Below are positions 1 through 10,336 of a stretch of 36,177 nt of DNA, in pieces. The notes below the pieces were generated by a model that saw only the letters and a list, made by a program, of their open reading frames with translations, was not told where the DNA came from and made no database searches. The position numbers were made by a program, and so were the translations under genes. Positions within the stretch are counted from its first letter, which is position 1. Every line of letters begins with the position of its first letter. Source of the DNA: Thermoplasmata archaeon (GTDB lineage Archaea; Thermoplasmatota; Thermoplasmata; Thermoplasmatales; ARK-15); assembly GCA_023261755.1 (NCBI GenBank), contig JAGDXS010000030.1, positions 1 through 36,177 of the forward strand, written 5' to 3'.

Positions 1-61
1 GCGGATTGCCAATGTTCTTGTTTCATTATGATTATAATATAAAATAATTGCATTCGAAGTT

Positions 62-106
62 ATCGGCTCTGTATCCTACCTTTGAAAAGGTGGGGATTAG
101 AGCCGA
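62..106. repeat. Strong hairpin, possible IS200/IS605-type right end
   Basis: Bases 63-70 pair with 99-106. An inner helix pairs 73-77 with 93-97, and 78-82 pairs with 87-91 across a four-base loop, with one bulged G. The GC-rich imperfect hairpin stands out in AT-rich surroundings. Its CCTACCTTT...AAGGTGGGG core resembles the right-end hairpins of IS200/IS605 (TnpB-type) elements, which also form the 3' part of the guide RNA. No transposase gene lies in the window; if one exists it is to the left. A transcription terminator or a structured small RNA are alternatives. The hairpin is certain; its meaning is a guess. Confidence 0.4.
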
Positions 107-2572: not shown

Positions 2573-3886
2573 ATGATAACACCAAAAAATGTTCATGAAA
2601 TATTGGGAAAAAGAATTTTGACTGACGGCTATGATATGGTTCTTGACATGGAGAAGAGCCAAGGTGCTTGGCTATATGATTCTAGATTCGACAAAAAATA
2701 TTTGGATTTTTTCGGTTTTTTTGCCACATCTGCTGTTGGAATGAACCATCCTAAATTTTTTGAGACAGAATTCTTAAAAAAATTGGAAAGAGCAGCAATA
2801 AACAAACCTACGAATTCTGATATATACACAGTTGAAATGGCAGAATTTGTTGAGACACTTTCCAGAATAGCTACACCCGATTACATGAAATATTTCTTCT
2901 TTATAGAGGGTGGAGCTTTAGCTGTAGAAAATGCCTTAAAAACAGCATTTGATTGGAAAGTAAGGAAGAATTTCAAAAAAGGCTATAAGGAAGAAAAAGG
3001 TTATAAAGTAATACATTTGAGGGAAGCTTTCCATGGAAGATCTGGATACACATTATCATTAACAAATACATTCGATCCAAGAAAAACTCAATATTTTCCA
3101 AAATTTAACTGGCCGAGGATAACAAATCCGAAGATCACATTTCCTCTATCAGGTGAGAATATAAAGAAAGTAGAAGAGCTTGAAAAGAAAAGTTTAGATG
3201 AAATGGAAAAAGCCATAAAGGAAAATCCCGATGATATAGCAGCATTTATAATTGAACCAATCCAGGGAGAAGGTGGAGACAACCATTTCAGGAAAGAATA
3301 TTTTAAGGAAGTTGAAAAAATTACAAAGAAAAATGAAATTATGTTCATAGTTGATGAAGTTCAGAGTGGTATGGGAATTACAGGAAAATGGTGGGCACAT
3401 CAGCATTTTGATGTTAAACCTGATATAATTGCCTTCGGAAAGAAAATGCATGTGTGCGGTATAATGGTAGGGCCAAGAATAGATGAAATTGAGGACAATG
3501 TTTTCAAAGTATCAAGCAGAATTAATTCCACATGGGGTGGAAATCTAGCAGACATGGTAGCAGGTAAGAAGATACTTGAAATAATGGATGAAGAAAAGTT
3601 AGTTGATAACGCTGCAAAGATGGGAGAAATTTTTGTTAAGGGTCTTTTAGAGCTTCAGGAGAAGTACACTGTGATGAACAATGCAAGAGGAAGAGGTTTG
3701 ATGGACGCATTTGACCTTAAGGATACTAAAACAAGGGATGTTATGTTTGAACTTCTATACAAGAATGGTTTACTTGCATTAAAGACGGGAGAAAAAGGAA
3801 TAAGGTTCAGGCCACCGTTGGTTGTCGGAAATACAGAAGTTACTGAAGCTTTAAACAGAATAGAAAAATCTTTGAAAGAACTTTAA
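2573..3886 (+). CDS. lat: L-lysine 6-aminotransferase (class III PLP aminotransferase)
   Basis: A fold-type I PLP enzyme that should move the epsilon-amino group of L-lysine to 2-oxoglutarate, giving a semialdehyde that cyclises to piperideine-6-carboxylate. Visible features are EGGALAVENALKTAFDWK, the AFHGRSGYTLSLTNT block with DPRKTQYFPKFNWPRI, the PLP-ring aspartate in VDEVQSGMG, and FGKKMHVCG, whose lysine (residue 290) should form the Schiff base. The FGKK-x-x-VCG context is that of lysine 6-transaminases rather than of GABA or ornithine transaminases. Length (437) fits the family. An AT-rich promoter with TTTTTTAT about 27 bases before the ATG suggests a leaderless mRNA. A racemase gene follows 10 bases downstream, so both enzymes probably serve one pathway. 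Another omega-amino donor cannot be excluded. Confidence 0.88.
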   Translation: MITPKNVHEILGKRILTDGYDMVLDMEKSQGAWLYDSRFDKKYLDFFGFFATSAVGMNHPKFFETEFLKKLERAAINKPTNSDIYTVEMAEFVETLSRIATPDYMKYFFFIEGGALAVENALKTAFDWKVRKNFKKGYKEEKGYKVIHLREAFHGRSGYTLSLTNTFDPRKTQYFPKFNWPRITNPKITFPLSGENIKKVEELEKKSLDEMEKAIKENPDDIAAFIIEPIQGEGGDNHFRKEYFKEVEKITKKNEIMFIVDEVQSGMGITGKWWAHQHFDVKPDIIAFGKKMHVCGIMVGPRIDEIEDNVFKVSSRINSTWGGNLADMVAGKKILEIMDEEKLVDNAAKMGEIFVKGLLELQEKYTVMNNARGRGLMDAFDLKDTKTRDVMFELLYKNGLLALKTGEKGIRFRPPLVVGNTEVTEALNRIEKSLKEL

Positions 3887-3896
3887 TAATTTTTTT

Positions 3897-4952
3897 ATGA
3901 ACCCAAAACTTTTTATTTTTTTAAATAAAATTGAAGAAAATGCAAGGAAATTAAAACATTTGTTATCAAGGGAAGGAATAGATATTCTTGGAATTACAAA
4001 GGTAATGCTTGGAAATCCAAAGTATGCAGAAATTTTAATTAAATCTGGAATTACAAATATAGGAGATTCAAGAATTCAGAATATAACGAAAATGAAAAAA
4101 TATGGTATAGATGCAAAATTTTTTCAAATAAGGGCACCACAGATTTCCGAGGTTGAATACACAGTTAAATATGCCGATGCTGCATTTGTTACAGAGATTG
4201 AAACTGTTAAAGCTTTATCCTATTATTCAAAAAAATTAGAAAGGAAATTCGGATATTTGGTAATGGTTGAAATGGGAGATCTTAGGGAGGGTGTAATGCC
4301 TGAAGATCTTCTTCAATTTGTTAATGAATCCATGAAATATGGCATTGAATTCCTTGGCATAGGAACAAACTTGGGATGTTACGGAGGAGTAATTCCAACA
4401 AGGGAAAAAATTGATGAACTCGTTCAATTAAAGGATTTACTTGAGGATCATGGAATAAGTTCAAAAATAGTTTCTGGGGGAGCAACAGACACATTGCAAC
4501 TATTTGAAAAAAAAGAGCTAAAAGGAATAAATCAACTTAGGTTAGGTGAATCAATAGTACTTGGAAGGGATACCACAGGTAATAGAGAAATCGAATATTT
4601 GAATAGGGATACAGTAATCCTAGAAGCAGAAATCATAGAAATAAAAAATAAACCATCTAAGCCATATGGAAAAATAGGTCATGATGCTTTTGGTCATGTG
4701 CCTGAGATTCCAGACATAGGCATAAGAAGAAGGGCGATAATAGCCTTAGGAAAACAGGATGTGGAATTGGAATCTCTCATTCCCTTGGATAATAAAATTA
4801 AAATTTTAGGAGGAAGCGGAGACCATGTTATTCTTGATATCACAGACAGCGAAGAAAATTACAAAGTTGGATCTGTTATTAAATTTAATGTATTATATCC
4901 AGCATTGTTAAAGCTTATGACCTCACCCTTTGTGCAGAAGAAATTTTTATAA
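3897..4952 (+). CDS. Alanine/ornithine racemase-family PLP enzyme
   Basis: A fold-type III PLP enzyme (alanine racemase N-terminal barrel) of 351 residues. The PLP lysine is expected at K35 in GITKVMLGNP. Further family blocks are the VEMGDLREGVMPEDL strand, LGIGTNLGCYGG, VSGGATDTLQL and the substrate-side LRLGESIVLGRDT. These match the broad ornithine/amino-acid racemase group rather than the biosynthetic alanine racemase. It starts 10 bases after the lysine aminotransferase stop with no recognisable Shine-Dalgarno sequence, so the two are probably co-transcribed. Together they could interconvert D- and L-lysine or ornithine before or after omega-transamination, which is inference from gene order. 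Its last six bases overlap the convergent gene at 4947. Confidence 0.82.
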   Translation: MNPKLFIFLNKIEENARKLKHLLSREGIDILGITKVMLGNPKYAEILIKSGITNIGDSRIQNITKMKKYGIDAKFFQIRAPQISEVEYTVKYADAAFVTEIETVKALSYYSKKLERKFGYLVMVEMGDLREGVMPEDLLQFVNESMKYGIEFLGIGTNLGCYGGVIPTREKIDELVQLKDLLEDHGISSKIVSGGATDTLQLFEKKELKGINQLRLGESIVLGRDTTGNREIEYLNRDTVILEAEIIEIKNKPSKPYGKIGHDAFGHVPEIPDIGIRRRAIIALGKQDVELESLIPLDNKIKILGGSGDHVILDITDSEENYKVGSVIKFNVLYPALLKLMTSPFVQKKFL

Positions 4953-5876
4953 ATCGTAAACATGGCCAGGAATTCTTGGGAAAATCTGTACATTTCCTAT
5001 ATGGTCAACATTTGTAACCCACTTTAACAGCCTTTCAATGCCTATACCTGCTCCTGCACATTTTTTTATTTTTCCAGATTTTGCAAGATTCAAAATAACT
5101 TTGAAATTTTCTTCTTTAAGACCATCCCTTGATATCTTTTCTAACATTTTTGAATATTTGAATTCCCTTTTAGCACCGGACAGAACTTCACCAAGAGCGG
5201 GAAGATAAAGATCGTAGTTGTCCCATTTTCCTGTGTTAAAATCTTGATAATCATAGAATTCCCTAGGTATGTTTACCACCCAAACTGGTTCATTTAAATC
5301 TAAAACATTTTTTTCCCAATCTTGTCCAAATTCTTCCCTTAATTTTTCAGAATCAAAAATTTTCCAGGGTGGATTAATTAAATTCTCTAAATTACTGGGC
5401 AAATGATCATAATTTTCAGCAAAAACCTTTTTTAATTTATAAAAAATGGATTCAACAAATTTAATCACATCCGCAGATTCTGCATCCCTTATTTCAAAAT
5501 CAAGCTGTGTAAATTCGTAGGCATGGATACCAGTGAAAGCTCTTTCCCTCTTTTCAATTCTCACATTTGGAGAATATGTAAATAGTTTTTCATAAAGTAA
5601 TGAGCAAGCGACGATTTTATGCACTATCATGCTCTGTGTTACTTTTACATTTGAACCATAAATTTCCGCTTCAAGTCTTTTTTCAATTGATGCACCTGGA
5701 TCTGGCCACAATGGATCCGTGGACTTGGAAAATATTACTGGCATTATCCACTGATAGCCATTTTTTATGAATTCATCAGTTAAAAATTTCAGTAAAAATG
5801 TTCCCATTGAGCCTATCATTCTTTTTCTTTCTATTTCCGAATCGCTTAAATTATATATTGGTTTAGGCAGTTCCAT
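4947..5876 (-). CDS. Archaeal asparagine synthetase-related protein (AsnRS/AspRS catalytic core)
   Basis: This 309-residue protein is a class II aminoacyl-tRNA synthetase core without the N-terminal OB anticodon-binding domain. Motif 2-like YEFTQLDFEIRD and the motif 3 glycine/arginine run GAGIGIERLLKWV are clear. TQSMIVHKI and LGEVLSGAKREF supply further active-site blocks. Length and architecture fit the archaeal asparagine synthetase-related family, known from Pyrococcus, which makes asparagine from aspartate and ammonia. By that reading it acts in amino-acid synthesis and not on tRNA. It is transcribed divergently from an Lrp/AsnC regulator, and a palindrome overlaps its likely TATA box. 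The substrate is inferred from the family, not proved by the motifs. Confidence 0.85.
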   Translation of the reverse strand: MELPKPIYNLSDSEIERKRMIGSMGTFLLKFLTDEFIKNGYQWIMPVIFSKSTDPLWPDPGASIEKRLEAEIYGSNVKVTQSMIVHKIVACSLLYEKLFTYSPNVRIEKRERAFTGIHAYEFTQLDFEIRDAESADVIKFVESIFYKLKKVFAENYDHLPSNLENLINPPWKIFDSEKLREEFGQDWEKNVLDLNEPVWVVNIPREFYDYQDFNTGKWDNYDLYLPALGEVLSGAKREFKYSKMLEKISRDGLKEENFKVILNLAKSGKIKKCAGAGIGIERLLKWVTNVDHIGNVQIFPRIPGHVYDL

Positions 5877-5901
5877 ATATGTCTGTAAAACTTTGTAATT
5901 A

Positions 5902-5917
5902 TTAACATTTATGTTAA
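5902..5917. promoter_or_regulatory. Perfect palindrome TTAACAT-TT-ATGTTAA, candidate operator
   Basis: A 7-2-7 perfect inverted repeat lies in the divergent promoter between the asparagine-synthetase-like gene and the Lrp/AsnC gene. On the minus strand a TATA-like TTAATAAT (5898-5905) sits about 26 bases before the ATG of the synthetase-like gene, so a protein bound here would cover that TATA box. A dimeric Lrp-type regulator is the natural candidate. Confidence 0.5.
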
Positions 5918-5955
5918 AATTGTAAAATTTTTGTCTAATTTTTTTAAAATAATTG

Positions 5956-5975
5956 ACAAATTTTAAACAATTTGT
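5956..5975. promoter_or_regulatory. Perfect inverted repeat ACAAATT-6-AATTTGT, candidate operator
   Basis: Seven-base arms flank TTAAAC. It lies 56 bases (centre to centre) from the palindrome at 5902-5917, on the regulator side. The TTTTAAAC in its middle could be the TATA element of the Lrp/AsnC gene, which would make this an autoregulatory site. The arms differ in sequence from the first palindrome, so the two may bind with different affinity or bind different proteins. Confidence 0.5.
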
Positions 5976-6026
5976 TTGATTAAAAGAATAGAAAAGATTA
6001 AAATGATGTATATATATAATAAAACT

Positions 6027-6497
6027 ATGGATCTTGATAAAAAGGATATAGCAATATTGAAAGTGCTATCGAGCAATGGAAGAGCACAGGTAAGTGAAGT
6101 TTCTAAAATAACCAATATACCAAGGATCACTGTTTATAACAGAATTCAAAAGTTATTGAAGGATGGAATAATTAAAAAAATAATTCCAATACTTAATTAC
6201 AAAATGCTAGGTCTTTCTGTAACTGCTTTTATATTAATTTCTTTTTCACCAAATTTTAAACTTTCTCAGAGAACTGTTGCAAAGAAAATTTCAGCTATGA
6301 AAAATGTGGAGGAAGTTCATATAATAGCAGGAGAATGGGATCTATTGGTTAAAGTGAGAGGCAAAACTGTTGAAGATGTAGGATCCTATGTTGTTGATCA
6401 ATTAAGAAATGTTGAAGGTGTTGAAAAAACAATGACAATTGTTGCATTTGATACTGTTCTTGATGAACCATTGAGTATTGAGGGAATAAAATTATGA
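6027..6497 (+). CDS. Lrp/AsnC family transcriptional regulator
   Basis: A DNA-binding regulator of the feast/famine type. The N-terminal winged helix is visible (DKKDIAILKVLSSNGR, VSEVSKITNIPRITVYNRIQKLLKDGII), followed by an AsnC ligand/oligomerisation domain (VEEVHIIAGEWDLLVKVRG, VEGVEKTMTIVAF). In-frame starts exist upstream (TTG 5976, ATG 6003 and 6006). The ATG at 6027 is chosen because MDLDKKD is the usual beginning of the family and gives 156 residues. The promoter side carries two perfect palindromes shared with the divergent asparagine-synthetase-like gene. It overlaps the HAD phosphatase gene by four bases (ATGA), so the two are translationally coupled. The probable ligand is an amino acid, with asparagine or serine suggested by the neighbours. 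Confidence 0.93.
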   Translation: MDLDKKDIAILKVLSSNGRAQVSEVSKITNIPRITVYNRIQKLLKDGIIKKIIPILNYKMLGLSVTAFILISFSPNFKLSQRTVAKKISAMKNVEEVHIIAGEWDLLVKVRGKTVEDVGSYVVDQLRNVEGVEKTMTIVAFDTVLDEPLSIEGIKL

Positions 6498-7162
6498 TCA
6501 AGCTTGTTGTTTTCGATATGGATGGTGTTTTAACCGATTGCAAGAGTAGTTGGTATTTTGTGCATAGATATTTTAATACAGATAATATTGAAAATATTAG
6601 ATTATTTAATGAAGGTAAGATAGATTATCCTACTTTTATATACAAGGATGTAATGCTTTGGAAAAACAAAGATCCTTTTCTTAGTATTGAAAAGCTTAAA
6701 GAAATTTATTCTAAAATGCCTTTAATGAATGGTGCAGAGGAAACAGTTGAAATGCTTAAAAAAAATGGAAAAAAAATAGCTATTATAACAGGTGGTCTTG
6801 ATATTCTTGCTGAAATTGTTTCAAAAAGACTCGGCATTGAAATTTATTATGCTAACGGCCTTGAAGTTGATGAAAATGGCATTATAACCGGAAGGCCAAA
6901 AATGGTTGTAAATCCATATAGGAAAGATATTGCTTTGTTGAACCTTCTTGAGAATCTTAAAATAAGTAAGAGAGAGACTGTTGCCATAGGTGACGGTGAG
7001 GTTGATGTACCAATGTTCCGTCTTGTGGAAAAAAGCATAGCTTTTGATCCACTAGATGAATCAGTTGAAAAAAATGCAAAAATAGTAATAAAGAAAAAGG
7101 ATTTAAGAGAAATACTTCCCTATGTTTTAAGTACCGATCCAGAATCTTCAAGTAATTTATAA
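6494..7162 (+). CDS. HAD-family phosphatase, phosphoserine phosphatase-like
   Basis: All four HAD motifs are present in 222 residues. DMDGVLTD near residues 8-15 holds the nucleophile and acid/base aspartates, and ITGG is motif II. A lysine in NPYRKDIALLNLL may serve as motif III, and GDGEVDVPMF is motif IV. The cap insertion after motif I and the spacing resemble SerB-type (subfamily IB) phosphatases, so hydrolysis of phosphoserine to serine is the first guess. Other small phosphomonoesters remain possible. The start overlaps the Lrp/AsnC stop by four bases. The last 43 bases overlap the 3' end of the convergent MoeA fusion gene. Confidence 0.83.
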   Translation: MIKLVVFDMDGVLTDCKSSWYFVHRYFNTDNIENIRLFNEGKIDYPTFIYKDVMLWKNKDPFLSIEKLKEIYSKMPLMNGAEETVEMLKKNGKKIAIITGGLDILAEIVSKRLGIEIYYANGLEVDENGIITGRPKMVVNPYRKDIALLNLLENLKISKRETVAIGDGEVDVPMFRLVEKSIAFDPLDESVEKNAKIVIKKKDLREILPYVLSTDPESSSNL

Positions 7163-9078
7163 CCTGGAAATTTTTTTCTTATTATTTCTGCTGTTTCATT
7201 TGATTTAAGTAAATTTATTATTTCTTTAACTTCATTTTTATCCAATGAATCTTTTTTTACAAGTAAATCATAAATTTCAAAACCAATAGGTATGAAGTCA
7301 AGGCCATATAGTTCTGCATAAAATTTTAAGCTTATCCCGGCATCTGCTCTTCCCTGCGATACCGCAGATGCAACAGATGAATGAGTTTTACCTTCAAAAT
7401 GGTATCCCTTTATATTCTTAATAACGTATTCAAAATCAATTCCAATTTTTTCTGCCTCCTTTTCCAGAAGTATGTCAAGAAGTGTTCTAGTACCTGAACC
7501 TTTTACCCTATTTATTATGGTAACATCATCTCTTAGAAAATCTTTAACAGAATTTATATTCTTTGGATTTCCTTTTTTTAATAAAATTCCTTGTTCCCTG
7601 CCATAACCTCTGATAATAACAGCTTTATCATTTAATCCAAATTTTTCAATAAAAGGTAAATTGTATTTTCCAGTTTTTTCATCCAGAAGGTGTGTGCCAG
7701 CCATATCAGCTTCTCCATTCTTTACGGCATACCAACCTGCAGTTGATCCTACCCTTATATACTTTACATTTCTTATATTTGATATTAAATTTTCAAGCAA
7801 AGGGCAGTGGCTACCTATAATTGTTAAATTAGGAATGTTTATTGCATTACCTAACAAATAAATCTCAATATCCTCATTTTCATCTACATAATTTACATTT
7901 TCAGGTATTTTCATAATTCCATCTGCGTAGAGCATTGATGTTATAGAACCTGAATTTCCATATATTGGGTATGCTTTTAATTCATCCTTTATTTTAATTA
8001 TATTTACAGGAATAAATTCAACTACATTCTTATTCGAATTTACTCTTACAGAGAGCTTTGCCCTTATTTTATTTTCATCATCTTGAATTCCAGATAATTT
8101 CATTAAAATAGGTTTTACAAGGTATTGATATGCAATTATTCCTGACATTGGAAATCCTGGAAGCCCTATTAACAATTTTTTCCCTGAAACTGCTACAATA
8201 GTTGGTTTTCCAGGCTTGATTTTCAGGCCATGAACTATTAGCTTTCCAATATCTCCATAAACTCTATAAATCAAGTCACCAATGCCTGCTGAAGTGCTTC
8301 CTGAAGTAATTACTACATCATTTTCATCCATTGCCATTTCTACAATGTCTTTTATCTCATCATAGTTATCTTTTACTATACCATAAAATCTAGGTTTTAG
8401 ACCAATTTCCATAAGATAAGAAAAAATTGTATGTGAATTTGAATCATAGATCATACCTGGTTTGAGAGATTTTCCGATATATTCAACTTCATCACCAGTT
8501 GAAATTATACCAACACTTAATCTCTTGTAAACAGGTATTTTCTCATAACCAAGGGATGCCATAATGGCAATATCAAGTGGTGAAATTTTTTTACCTTTTC
8601 TTAAAGTAGTATCACCTACCATTACATCTGATCCTGCATTTGATATATTTTCACCCGTGGAAATAGATCTGTATATTTTTATTTCATCTTCAATTCTTTT
8701 GGTATATTCCACCATAACAACAGCAGTAGCACCTCTAGGTATAGGCGCACCAGTTGCAATCTCAACACATGTTCCTTTTGTAATAGATATCTCAGGTATT
8801 TTACCTACAACGGATTTACCTATTATTTTCAATGATACAGGATTATCCTCATCCGCACCAATTAAATCCTCGTGGTTAACTGCATAGCCATCAACTTCAG
8901 ATCTATCAAATGGAGGTGAATCAACCTTTGCATATATTTCATCCGCAAGAATTCTTCCTAGGGAATCATCTATATCAATATATTCTATTTCTGAAGGTGT
9001 TAATTTTCCATATTCTTTTTCAATAATTTTTAAGGCTTCTTCAATTGATAATAATTCATGAAATATTTTTTGCATCAT
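7120..9078 (-). CDS. MoeA molybdopterin molybdenumtransferase fused to periplasmic-binding-like domain
   Basis: The first 400 or so residues are a full MoeA. It has an N-terminal domain with SPPFDRSEVDGYAV and TGAPIPRGATAVVMVEYT. A MoCF domain follows with STGDEV, GSTSAGIGDLIY and IKPGKPT...IGLPGFPMSG, then a beta-rich C-terminal domain. Residues from about 420 to 640 form a PBP-like domain (VGSTAGWYAVKNGEADMAGTH, INRVKGSGTRTLLDILL, HSSVASAVSQGRADAGI), as in archaeal MoeA/LysR-substrate-domain fusions. MoeA inserts molybdate or tungstate into adenylylated molybdopterin, and the added domain may bind the oxyanion or sense the cofactor. GAGGTGA lies just upstream of tandem ATGs (9078, 9075). 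The gene overlaps the end of the second moeA by 23 bases, showing an operon. Confidence 0.93.
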   Translation of the reverse strand: MMQKIFHELLSIEEALKIIEKEYGKLTPSEIEYIDIDDSLGRILADEIYAKVDSPPFDRSEVDGYAVNHEDLIGADEDNPVSLKIIGKSVVGKIPEISITKGTCVEIATGAPIPRGATAVVMVEYTKRIEDEIKIYRSISTGENISNAGSDVMVGDTTLRKGKKISPLDIAIMASLGYEKIPVYKRLSVGIISTGDEVEYIGKSLKPGMIYDSNSHTIFSYLMEIGLKPRFYGIVKDNYDEIKDIVEMAMDENDVVITSGSTSAGIGDLIYRVYGDIGKLIVHGLKIKPGKPTIVAVSGKKLLIGLPGFPMSGIIAYQYLVKPILMKLSGIQDDENKIRAKLSVRVNSNKNVVEFIPVNIIKIKDELKAYPIYGNSGSITSMLYADGIMKIPENVNYVDENEDIEIYLLGNAINIPNLTIIGSHCPLLENLISNIRNVKYIRVGSTAGWYAVKNGEADMAGTHLLDEKTGKYNLPFIEKFGLNDKAVIIRGYGREQGILLKKGNPKNINSVKDFLRDDVTIINRVKGSGTRTLLDILLEKEAEKIGIDFEYVIKNIKGYHFEGKTHSSVASAVSQGRADAGISLKFYAELYGLDFIPIGFEIYDLLVKKDSLDKNEVKEIINLLKSNETAEIIRKKFPGYKLLEDSGSVLKT

Positions 9079-10336
9079 TATTCACCTCTTCAATAGGTTG
9101 TGTTATTTCTACATTTACAATTGAATTTTCATCATATCCTTCTGAATTTTCATTTATAACCATAATTCCATTTGCTCTTGTTAAAGTTGAGAGTATGCCT
9201 GAACCTGTTAATCTCAATGGTTCTATCAAATAATCGTTGTCCTTTTTTATTATTCTAACCCTCACAAAGGATCTAATACCTGGAGGGTTGGGGAATCTTT
9301 TTGTTAATTTTCCTTTTATCTCTGGTACAGGATTTAAAACTGTTCCATAAAAAATTTTAAGAAATTCCCTAAAAAATAAATTGAATGAGATGTAGGCTGC
9401 CACAGGAAAACCTGAAATCATTATTATTGGGATTTTGCCATCGAAGGCAATTCCTGTGGTTCTAGCTGGCCTCATTGCTATTCCATGAACTACAATTCCA
9501 GGTTTAGCAATACTTTCAACAGCATCTGGAACAAGGTCATAATTTCCAAGGCTTGTACCGCCAGTTATAACTACCAAATCAGAAATTTGAATTGCAATTC
9601 TTAATTTTTCTTTTATTTCATTCAGATCGTCTTTAACTATACCTAGATCTATTGGTTCAGCATAATTTTCTTTTAATGCTGAAATTATCATCGGTCTCGT
9701 TGAGTCTATTATTCCATCTTTTTCATCGCCTATATTTTTTAATTCTGATCCAGTGGAAATAACAGACACCCTTGCTTTCTTAAAAACTTTCAATTTATCA
9801 ACACCACATGAAACAAGTGCACCTATATGGAATGGTCTTATTAATGTTCCTTTTTTTATGACAATGTCTCCCTTGGAAAAATCCTCACCTTTTCTTGATA
9901 CATTCTGATATTTGAAGCACTGTTTCAACACCAATAATTTATCACCATTTCTTGAACAATCCTCTGCCATTACAACGCAATCTGATCCATTTGGCAATTT
10001 ACCTCCAGTATAAATTTCAATTGCCTGATCTTTTTCAATTACAATAGATGATTTTTCGCCAGCGCTTATTTTTCCAACAATAGAAATTTCTATGGGATTT
10101 GAAGGTGAAGCACCTGAAACATCAATAGACCTGACAGCATAACCATCAACTACGCTTCTATCCTCTGCGGGTAGGTCAAAATTTGAAAGTACATTTTCAA
10201 ATGAAAACCTGTTCAATGAATCTGTCACGTTTACAATTTCATATTCCTTAGATTCCTGTATTCTAGTTTTGAATTCTTTCAGTGCTTCTTCAACTGAATA
10301 GTATTTTTTGAACCCTAACATCTTTTTTCTGTTCAT
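9056..10336 (-). CDS. moeA: Molybdopterin molybdenumtransferase MoeA
   Basis: A 426-residue MoeA without an extra domain. The blocks DLPAEDRSVVDGYAV, YTGGKLPNGSDCVVMAED, STGSEL, ITGGTSLGNYDLVPDAVES and MRPARTTG...MISGFPVAAYI give the usual domain order. It is the first gene of a two-gene operon with the MoeA-PBP fusion. Paired MoeA paralogues are common in archaea, and one idea is that they handle molybdenum and tungsten separately. This is unproven here. A second in-frame ATG lies five codons in (10321), so the exact start is uncertain. The product would serve enzymes such as the molybdopterin oxidoreductase encoded at 33724-35562. Confidence 0.93.
   Translation of the reverse strand: MNRKKMLGFKKYYSVEEALKEFKTRIQESKEYEIVNVTDSLNRFSFENVLSNFDLPAEDRSVVDGYAVRSIDVSGASPSNPIEISIVGKISAGEKSSIVIEKDQAIEIYTGGKLPNGSDCVVMAEDCSRNGDKLLVLKQCFKYQNVSRKGEDFSKGDIVIKKGTLIRPFHIGALVSCGVDKLKVFKKARVSVISTGSELKNIGDEKDGIIDSTRPMIISALKENYAEPIDLGIVKDDLNEIKEKLRIAIQISDLVVITGGTSLGNYDLVPDAVESIAKPGIVVHGIAMRPARTTGIAFDGKIPIIMISGFPVAAYISFNLFFREFLKIFYGTVLNPVPEIKGKLTKRFPNPPGIRSFVRVRIIKKDNDYLIEPLRLTGSGILSTLTRANGIMVINENSEGYDENSIVNVEITQPIEEVNNDAKNIS

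Follow-up and report, generated by a model that had tools for sequence, protein, structure and literature searches.

The window, i.e. the whole stretch of 36,177 nucleotides that was analysed, comes from an A+T-rich archaeal genome of 1.22 Mb (G000, contig C20) whose named relatives are Thermoplasmata/Thermoplasmatales. Two of its genes are arranged head-to-head. The gene on the minus strand (4947-5876) encodes an archaeal asparagine synthetase A of the AS-AR type (AS), a protein of 309 amino acids that belongs to the DPLWPDP subtype. It passes the NCBIfam equivalog NF005054 'asparagine synthetase A' (353.9 bits, cut-off 309) and aligns over almost its full length with the solved Pyrococcus enzymes 1nnh and 3p8t (E about 1e-75), the P. 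abyssi AS-AR (3p8t, 7e-75) being of the same enzyme family. The protein consists of a class II catalytic core (PF00152, residues 73-301) and lacks an anticodon-binding domain for tRNA. Judging from these similarities, the protein is predicted to make asparagine from aspartate and ammonia.

The gene on the plus strand (lrp, 6027-6497) encodes an Lrp/AsnC-family regulator of 156 amino acids, counted from ATG 6027, which the alignment with the relatives in two congeners indicates as the likely start. An N-terminal HTH domain (PF13412) and a C-terminal AsnC/RAM ligand domain (PF01037) were both found above their cut-offs, and the tree and the alignment place the protein in an AS-linked archaeal clade marked by an SQR insertion and a GEWDLL motif. 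It fails the AsnC equivalog model PRK11179 (60.6 bits, cut-off 227) and also the LysM model NF040947 (78.2 bits, cut-off 180), although the latter is its best NCBIfam match. The closest solved structure by sequence is PH1519/FL11 (E 6e-22). Gene models and strands thus bear out the original prediction of an AsnC-type regulator divergent from an archaeal asparagine synthetase; the shared promoter, given there as roughly 100 bases, measures 150 bp (5877-6026). An Rfam search of the window gave no match.

The lrp stop codon is overlapped (ATGA) by a HAD-IB phosphoserine-phosphatase-like (SerB-like) gene (6494-7162, plus strand; TIGR01491, 182 bits, above the cut-off), which is likely co-transcribed with lrp in this genus. 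Among the loci compared, it occupies the same place only in G001 and G002. Just downstream of AS there are genes for an L-lysine 6-transaminase (LAT) and then for an ornithine-racemase-like (Orr-like) protein (2573-4952 together). The Orr-like product scores 390.8 bits against a cut-off of 480, and the two genes possibly represent a lysine pathway. The LAT, Orr-like and HAD neighbours are kept in the genus and in almost no other locus compared. Farther along, a gene of 652 codons on the minus strand (7120-9078) appears, by eye, to encode a fusion of a MoeA-type and a periplasmic-binding-like domain; a second MoeA-like gene (9056-10336) comes after it, and this arrangement, also judged by eye, is conserved in the genus.

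The conservation of the pair was investigated by searching each protein against 100 relatives in the order. AS is head-to-head with an Lrp ortholog in 69 out of 82 cases, with 133-267 bp between the matches. Four more AS genes are tail-to-tail with Lrp (one genus), and the remaining nine have another location or lie at the end of a contig. In the tail-to-tail loci (L101-L104; family f4, g10) the adjacency outlasts a flip of orientation. The co-occurrence of AS and regulator is close to complete (80/1/1/19; Fisher 2e-18, a value that ignores kinship, its true weight being lower). The regulator is present and AS absent in G028, where the regulator sits at a contig end, and at least four separate lineages (G003, G005, G008 and part of family f4) are without both genes.

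The divergent pair also recurs in other classes of the phylum (sample of 390 genomes). Among named genomes, which include archaea and Bacteroidota, a divergent Lrp accompanies the AS-family gene in 46 out of 60 loci (L170-L229), the groups concerned being Bathyarchaeota, Nitrososphaerota, Micrarchaeota, Aenigmatarchaeota, Diapherotrites, Methanofastidiosia, Thermoplasmata and Bacteroidota. In a single Desulfurococcales locus the Lrp follows AS immediately, on the same strand. A divergent Lrp was found in none of 19 loci of related non-AS synthetases (L231-L249). In Thermococcus and Methanodesulfokora the two genes are apart in the genome, i.e. thermococcal AS loci, unlike the window, have no adjacent Lrp and the regulator ortholog is located elsewhere. 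These orphan orthologs of the AS-linked regulator lie at L255 1495-1953 and L251 1510-1947. Adjacency by itself is no proof of regulation, and the separation of the genes in some lineages could be taken to mean that the two genes are neighbours as a relic of an old gene order, or by hitchhiking, and share no regulation. We consider this extremely unlikely, since the adjacency persists though the enzyme subtype and the regulator lineage vary, the two genes are absent jointly, and the operator grid between them is fixed.

This grid emerged from a palindromic motif search of 56 non-redundant intergenic regions, which returned de novo a 15-bp box, TAGACATWATGTCTA, with a log-likelihood of 165 as compared to 27 in shuffles. 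Across the order the boxes keep to two fixed positions separated by 41 bp, about 53 and 94 bp ahead of the AS start codon. Box pairs spaced by 39-43 bp were seen 19 times with 0.4 expected, and the density of sites in AS-52..54 and AS-92..95 is about 4-5 per position versus 0.12 per position elsewhere. A box is present at -52 to -54 in 15 out of 43 members and at -92 to -95 in 14 out of 43; a few members have a third one at -32/-33. Where the AS start can be assigned, a strong site is missing from both grid positions in about half of the members of the order, and most loci outside the order are without a match to the box model. The grid is considered to be anchored on AS because the spacing between box and regulator start is variable. 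The outer box of many relatives is found 38 bp before the lrp start, near the lrp BRE/TATA.

Before members of the window's genus were scored, the box matrix (PWM) was re-estimated without that genus. The genus-free matrix finds TTAACAAAATGTTAA in G001 (P 0.005) and TTATCAAAATGTAAA in G002 (P 0.025). In the window it points to a predicted operator O1, TAAACAATTTGTTTG, at 5964-5978 (9.6 bits, P 0.03). The centre of O1 (5971) is 95 bp upstream of the AS start, i.e. in the canonical AS-92..95 position, and 56 bp upstream of the lrp start. The other grid position, AS-54, holds a predicted operator half-site, O2 (TAAAATTTTTGTCTA, 5923-5937). It is a strong half-site, TTTGTCTAA, centred at 5930 and thus exactly 41 bp from O1, and its right half scores 8.0 bits (P 0.0025). 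Both congeners have a full box at AS-54.

The anchoring of the boxes on AS also bears on the suggestion that the regulator mainly controls another process, e.g. lysine or serine metabolism, and that its contact with AS is incidental. Such a role would agree with the LAT, the Orr-like racemase and the SerB-like HAD phosphatase that flank the pair in this genus. Lysine and glutamine bind to other Lrp members (FL11 and ST1022, respectively), and it is FL11 (PH1519), the lysine-binding protein, that is the closest solved relative. Nevertheless, among the loci compared these neighbours are found in the genus only, whereas the AS-Lrp adjacency spans phyla, and the box positions follow the AS start. 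We therefore regard a main role of the regulator in another process as very unlikely.

The original prediction had described two perfect palindromes in the promoter. Palindrome 1 (TTAACATTTATGTTAA, 5902-5917; TTAACAT-TT-ATGTTAA) has its centre 33.5 bp upstream of the AS start, and palindrome 2 (5956-5975) reads ACAAATT-TTAAAC-AATTTGT. The 7-nt arms are perfect in both, but the elements as a whole are not, as the arms are separated by spacers of 2 and 6. Judged alone, the palindromes are at chance level: the intergenic region is 86% A+T, and among its dinucleotide shuffles 27% contain at least one repeat with 7-nt arms and a spacer of at most 2, while 14% contain two 7-nt-arm repeats with a spacer of at most 6 (P 0.27 and 0.14 in the window). 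The same is true in most relatives. The comparison of intergenic regions showed that neither palindrome is kept as such in the two congeners. Both of them fall on or beside the order-wide grid, however. Palindrome 1, a possible third site, matches the position of the occasional third sites at AS-32/33 in L062 and L078; palindrome 2 is a composite that partially overlaps O1, its centre being about 5 bp off that of the box. In other words, the operators differ from the palindromes that had been drawn, and the original prediction pointed to the right DNA but missed the middle site (5923-5937).

Each palindrome had also been said to overlap a likely TATA element. Palindrome 1 does lie on a TATA-like stretch that we read from the sequence as part of the putative AS promoter (TAATTATTAA, or TTAATAATTA on the minus strand; 5896-5905), 20-29 bp upstream of the AS start, assuming a leaderless transcript. 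Palindrome 2 is off the lrp promoter, whose BRE/TATA-like element AATAGAAAAGNTTAAAA = AATAGAAAAGATTAAAA (5987-6003, plus strand) is kept in the two congeners at an equal distance to the lrp ATG.

We consider it reasonably probable that the pair is a self-contained control circuit of asparagine synthesis, in which the regulator activates AS and asparagine or a close metabolite is the off-signal. The computed part of this circuit consists of the two genes, the way they are paired and occur together, and the box at its constant spacing; we infer the binding of the regulator to the box, the sign of the regulation, the effector and the leaderless transcription. The archaeal Lrp of the window, which belongs to the SQR/GEWDLL clade, would bind the 15-bp boxes as dimers or higher oligomers, and the bound boxes, about 54 and 95 bp upstream of a leaderless AS start, would be on one face of the shared promoter. 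From the -54 box, just upstream of the AS BRE/TATA, it would activate AS by aiding TBP/TFB, in a manner like that of Ptr2 and LysM, while at the outer box the oligomer may be stabilised or the DNA wrapped. The same binding may limit the regulator's own transcription. Asparagine, or a close metabolite (aspartate, glutamine), would bind the ligand domain and switch the activation off. Put simply, the regulator is probably a local activator of AS that senses asparagine. Points that weigh against this circuit are the separated genes of Thermococcus and Methanodesulfokora, the half-site in place of a full box at -54 in the window, the order members that lack a strong site, and the poor fit of the box model to most loci beyond the order.

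Archaeal Lrp dimers are reported to bind imperfect repeats of 13-17 bp in helical phase, and in activating archaeal Lrps a dimer just upstream of the BRE, at a tightly constrained position, recruits TBP (review, PMC2995911). If bound by the regulator, the predicted grid would be like the sites of Ptr2, LysM and Ss-LrpB (PMC2995911) in the dyads of 13-17 bp, their helical phase and the constrained one just upstream of the BRE. It differs in spacing, which is about four turns (41 bp) in the window's order as compared to the two or three turns reported for archaeal activating Lrps, and the targets of Ptr2, LysM and Ss-LrpB differ from that of the window regulator. Activation of AS is preferred here because the constant -53 position of the box, counted from a presumably leaderless start, agrees with that in the activating archaeal Lrps; E. 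coli AsnC acts on asnA in this way.

The opposite sign was also considered, namely that asparagine is a co-repressor with which the regulator, at high asparagine levels, shuts down AS and its own gene by covering the TATA region. The overlap of palindrome 1 with the AS TATA-like stretch would suit such a repressor, as would the third sites at AS-32/33 in L062 and L078 and the outer box that in many relatives is located 38 bp from the lrp start, near the lrp BRE/TATA. However, sites over the TATA are rare (2 out of 43), and the conserved box at -53, upstream of the BRE, is in the position reported for activators (PMC2995911). We find repression rather unlikely on this account, and activation remains our preferred reading.

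A perfect box, TAAACAAAATGTTAA, was found in the window genome 54 bp upstream of an aspartate-aminotransferase-like gene (L110 1501-1515; G000:C10:16575-16589), and the congener ortholog (L284) has a weaker box, AAGACAAAGTGTTTA, at -51. The best model for this gene is NF041091, with a score below the cut-off. On sequence grounds it is a second candidate target of the regulator, and if it is a target, it would supply aspartate to AS. In G082, TTGACATATTGTCAA is located about 69 bp upstream of an apparent homoserine dehydrogenase gene of the aspartate family (L119 1501-1515); the AS and Lrp homologs of this genome are unlinked. A wider regulon based on perfect boxes in the relatives was rejected, as the matches were scattered and mostly intragenic or without a common target. 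A one-mismatch box pattern in the genus likewise was no more frequent than its reversed control in two out of three genomes (43 versus 61, 41 versus 53, 20 versus 13).

According to Kolling and Lother (1985), as cited in PMC4177876, E. coli AsnC is an autogenously regulated activator of asnA. The E. coli locus is like the window in that an Lrp/AsnC-family regulator is head-to-head with an asparagine synthetase, with a gap of 151 bp. The original prediction had drawn this analogy, which is well supported by the pair being kept far beyond the genus, by the co-occurrence of the genes and by the conserved Lrp-type operator between them. The parts differ. AsnA belongs to PF03590/TIGR00669, unlike the AS-AR of the window, AsnC is without the SQR insertion and groups apart from the window regulator, and the asnC-asnA intergenic region has no match to the archaeal box (P 0.97). 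To call the enzymes unrelated was nevertheless too strong, since AS-AR and AsnA, which are separate families, have the class II aaRS motif-3 region in common, where they give a local match.

The archaeal partner regulators share, in the alignment, the GEWDLL motif and the insertion of three residues that carries SQR, both of which are missing from FL11, PH0140, ST1022, E. coli Lrp and AsnC; Pyrococcus FL11 (PH1519) also falls outside the AS-linked clade. The tree, in which five Bacteroidota Lrps were placed, groups the Bacteroidota partner regulators with E. coli AsnC (98-100) and the window regulator within the archaeal clade. Bacteroidota partners score 177 and 151 bits with the AsnC model (cut-off 227). 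The Bacteroidota AS, on the other hand, falls among the archaeal AS-AR. An archaeal-type AS-AR divergent from an Lrp was seen in the Bacteroidota loci L211, L212, L213, L216, L220, L221 and L229. Because the Bacteroidota combine AsnC-type partners with an archaeal-type AS, there are two enzyme families with AsnC and two regulator lineages with AS-AR. In Hymenobacteraceae, AsnA was found beside AsnC in none of 30 loci; where AS-AR is missing beside the AsnC homolog, an apparent bacterial aspartyl-tRNA synthetase is in its place (L302, L308, L315).

The original prediction had read the likeness to E. coli as convergent evolution. The three-residue insertion does separate the regulator lineages, but a single clade of archaeal partners and AsnC/Bacteroidota regulators was not rejected (AU p 0.51), therefore one ancient origin or two are both possible. 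We tentatively suggest, at somewhat less than even confidence, that the head-to-head circuit was assembled more than once, as SQR-type Lrp/AS-AR in archaea, AsnC/AsnA in E. coli and AsnC/AS-AR in Bacteroidota, enzyme and regulator having been swapped independently of each other and the divergent arrangement retained or formed anew. Nearer to the window, the AS of its genus is of the DPLWPDP (Pyrococcus/Bathyarchaeota-like) subtype, while DPLNHP is the type of almost every other paired AS in the order. As a single clade of the genus AS with the AS of the order was rejected (AU 2e-4), the enzyme or the whole module was exchanged in this genus, and the Lrp tree fits both whole-module transfer and replacement of the enzyme alone (AU 0.78 and 0.40).

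To our knowledge, no transcriptional regulator of asparagine synthesis has been described in archaea, and a search of the open-access literature gave no report of one. The recurrence of the pairing, together with the matching control sites, suggests an old, previously undescribed asparagine switch like that of E. coli. We read it as a circuit that works like AsnC/asnA, with a different Lrp lineage in archaea. The regulator clade, the target, the operator sequence and the promoter geometry are predicted together, which makes the proposal testable with one protein and one DNA of 150 bp. Moreover, AsnC/AsnA, AsnC/AS-AR and archaeal Lrp/AS-AR would offer a testable case of selection rebuilding the same circuit from different parts.
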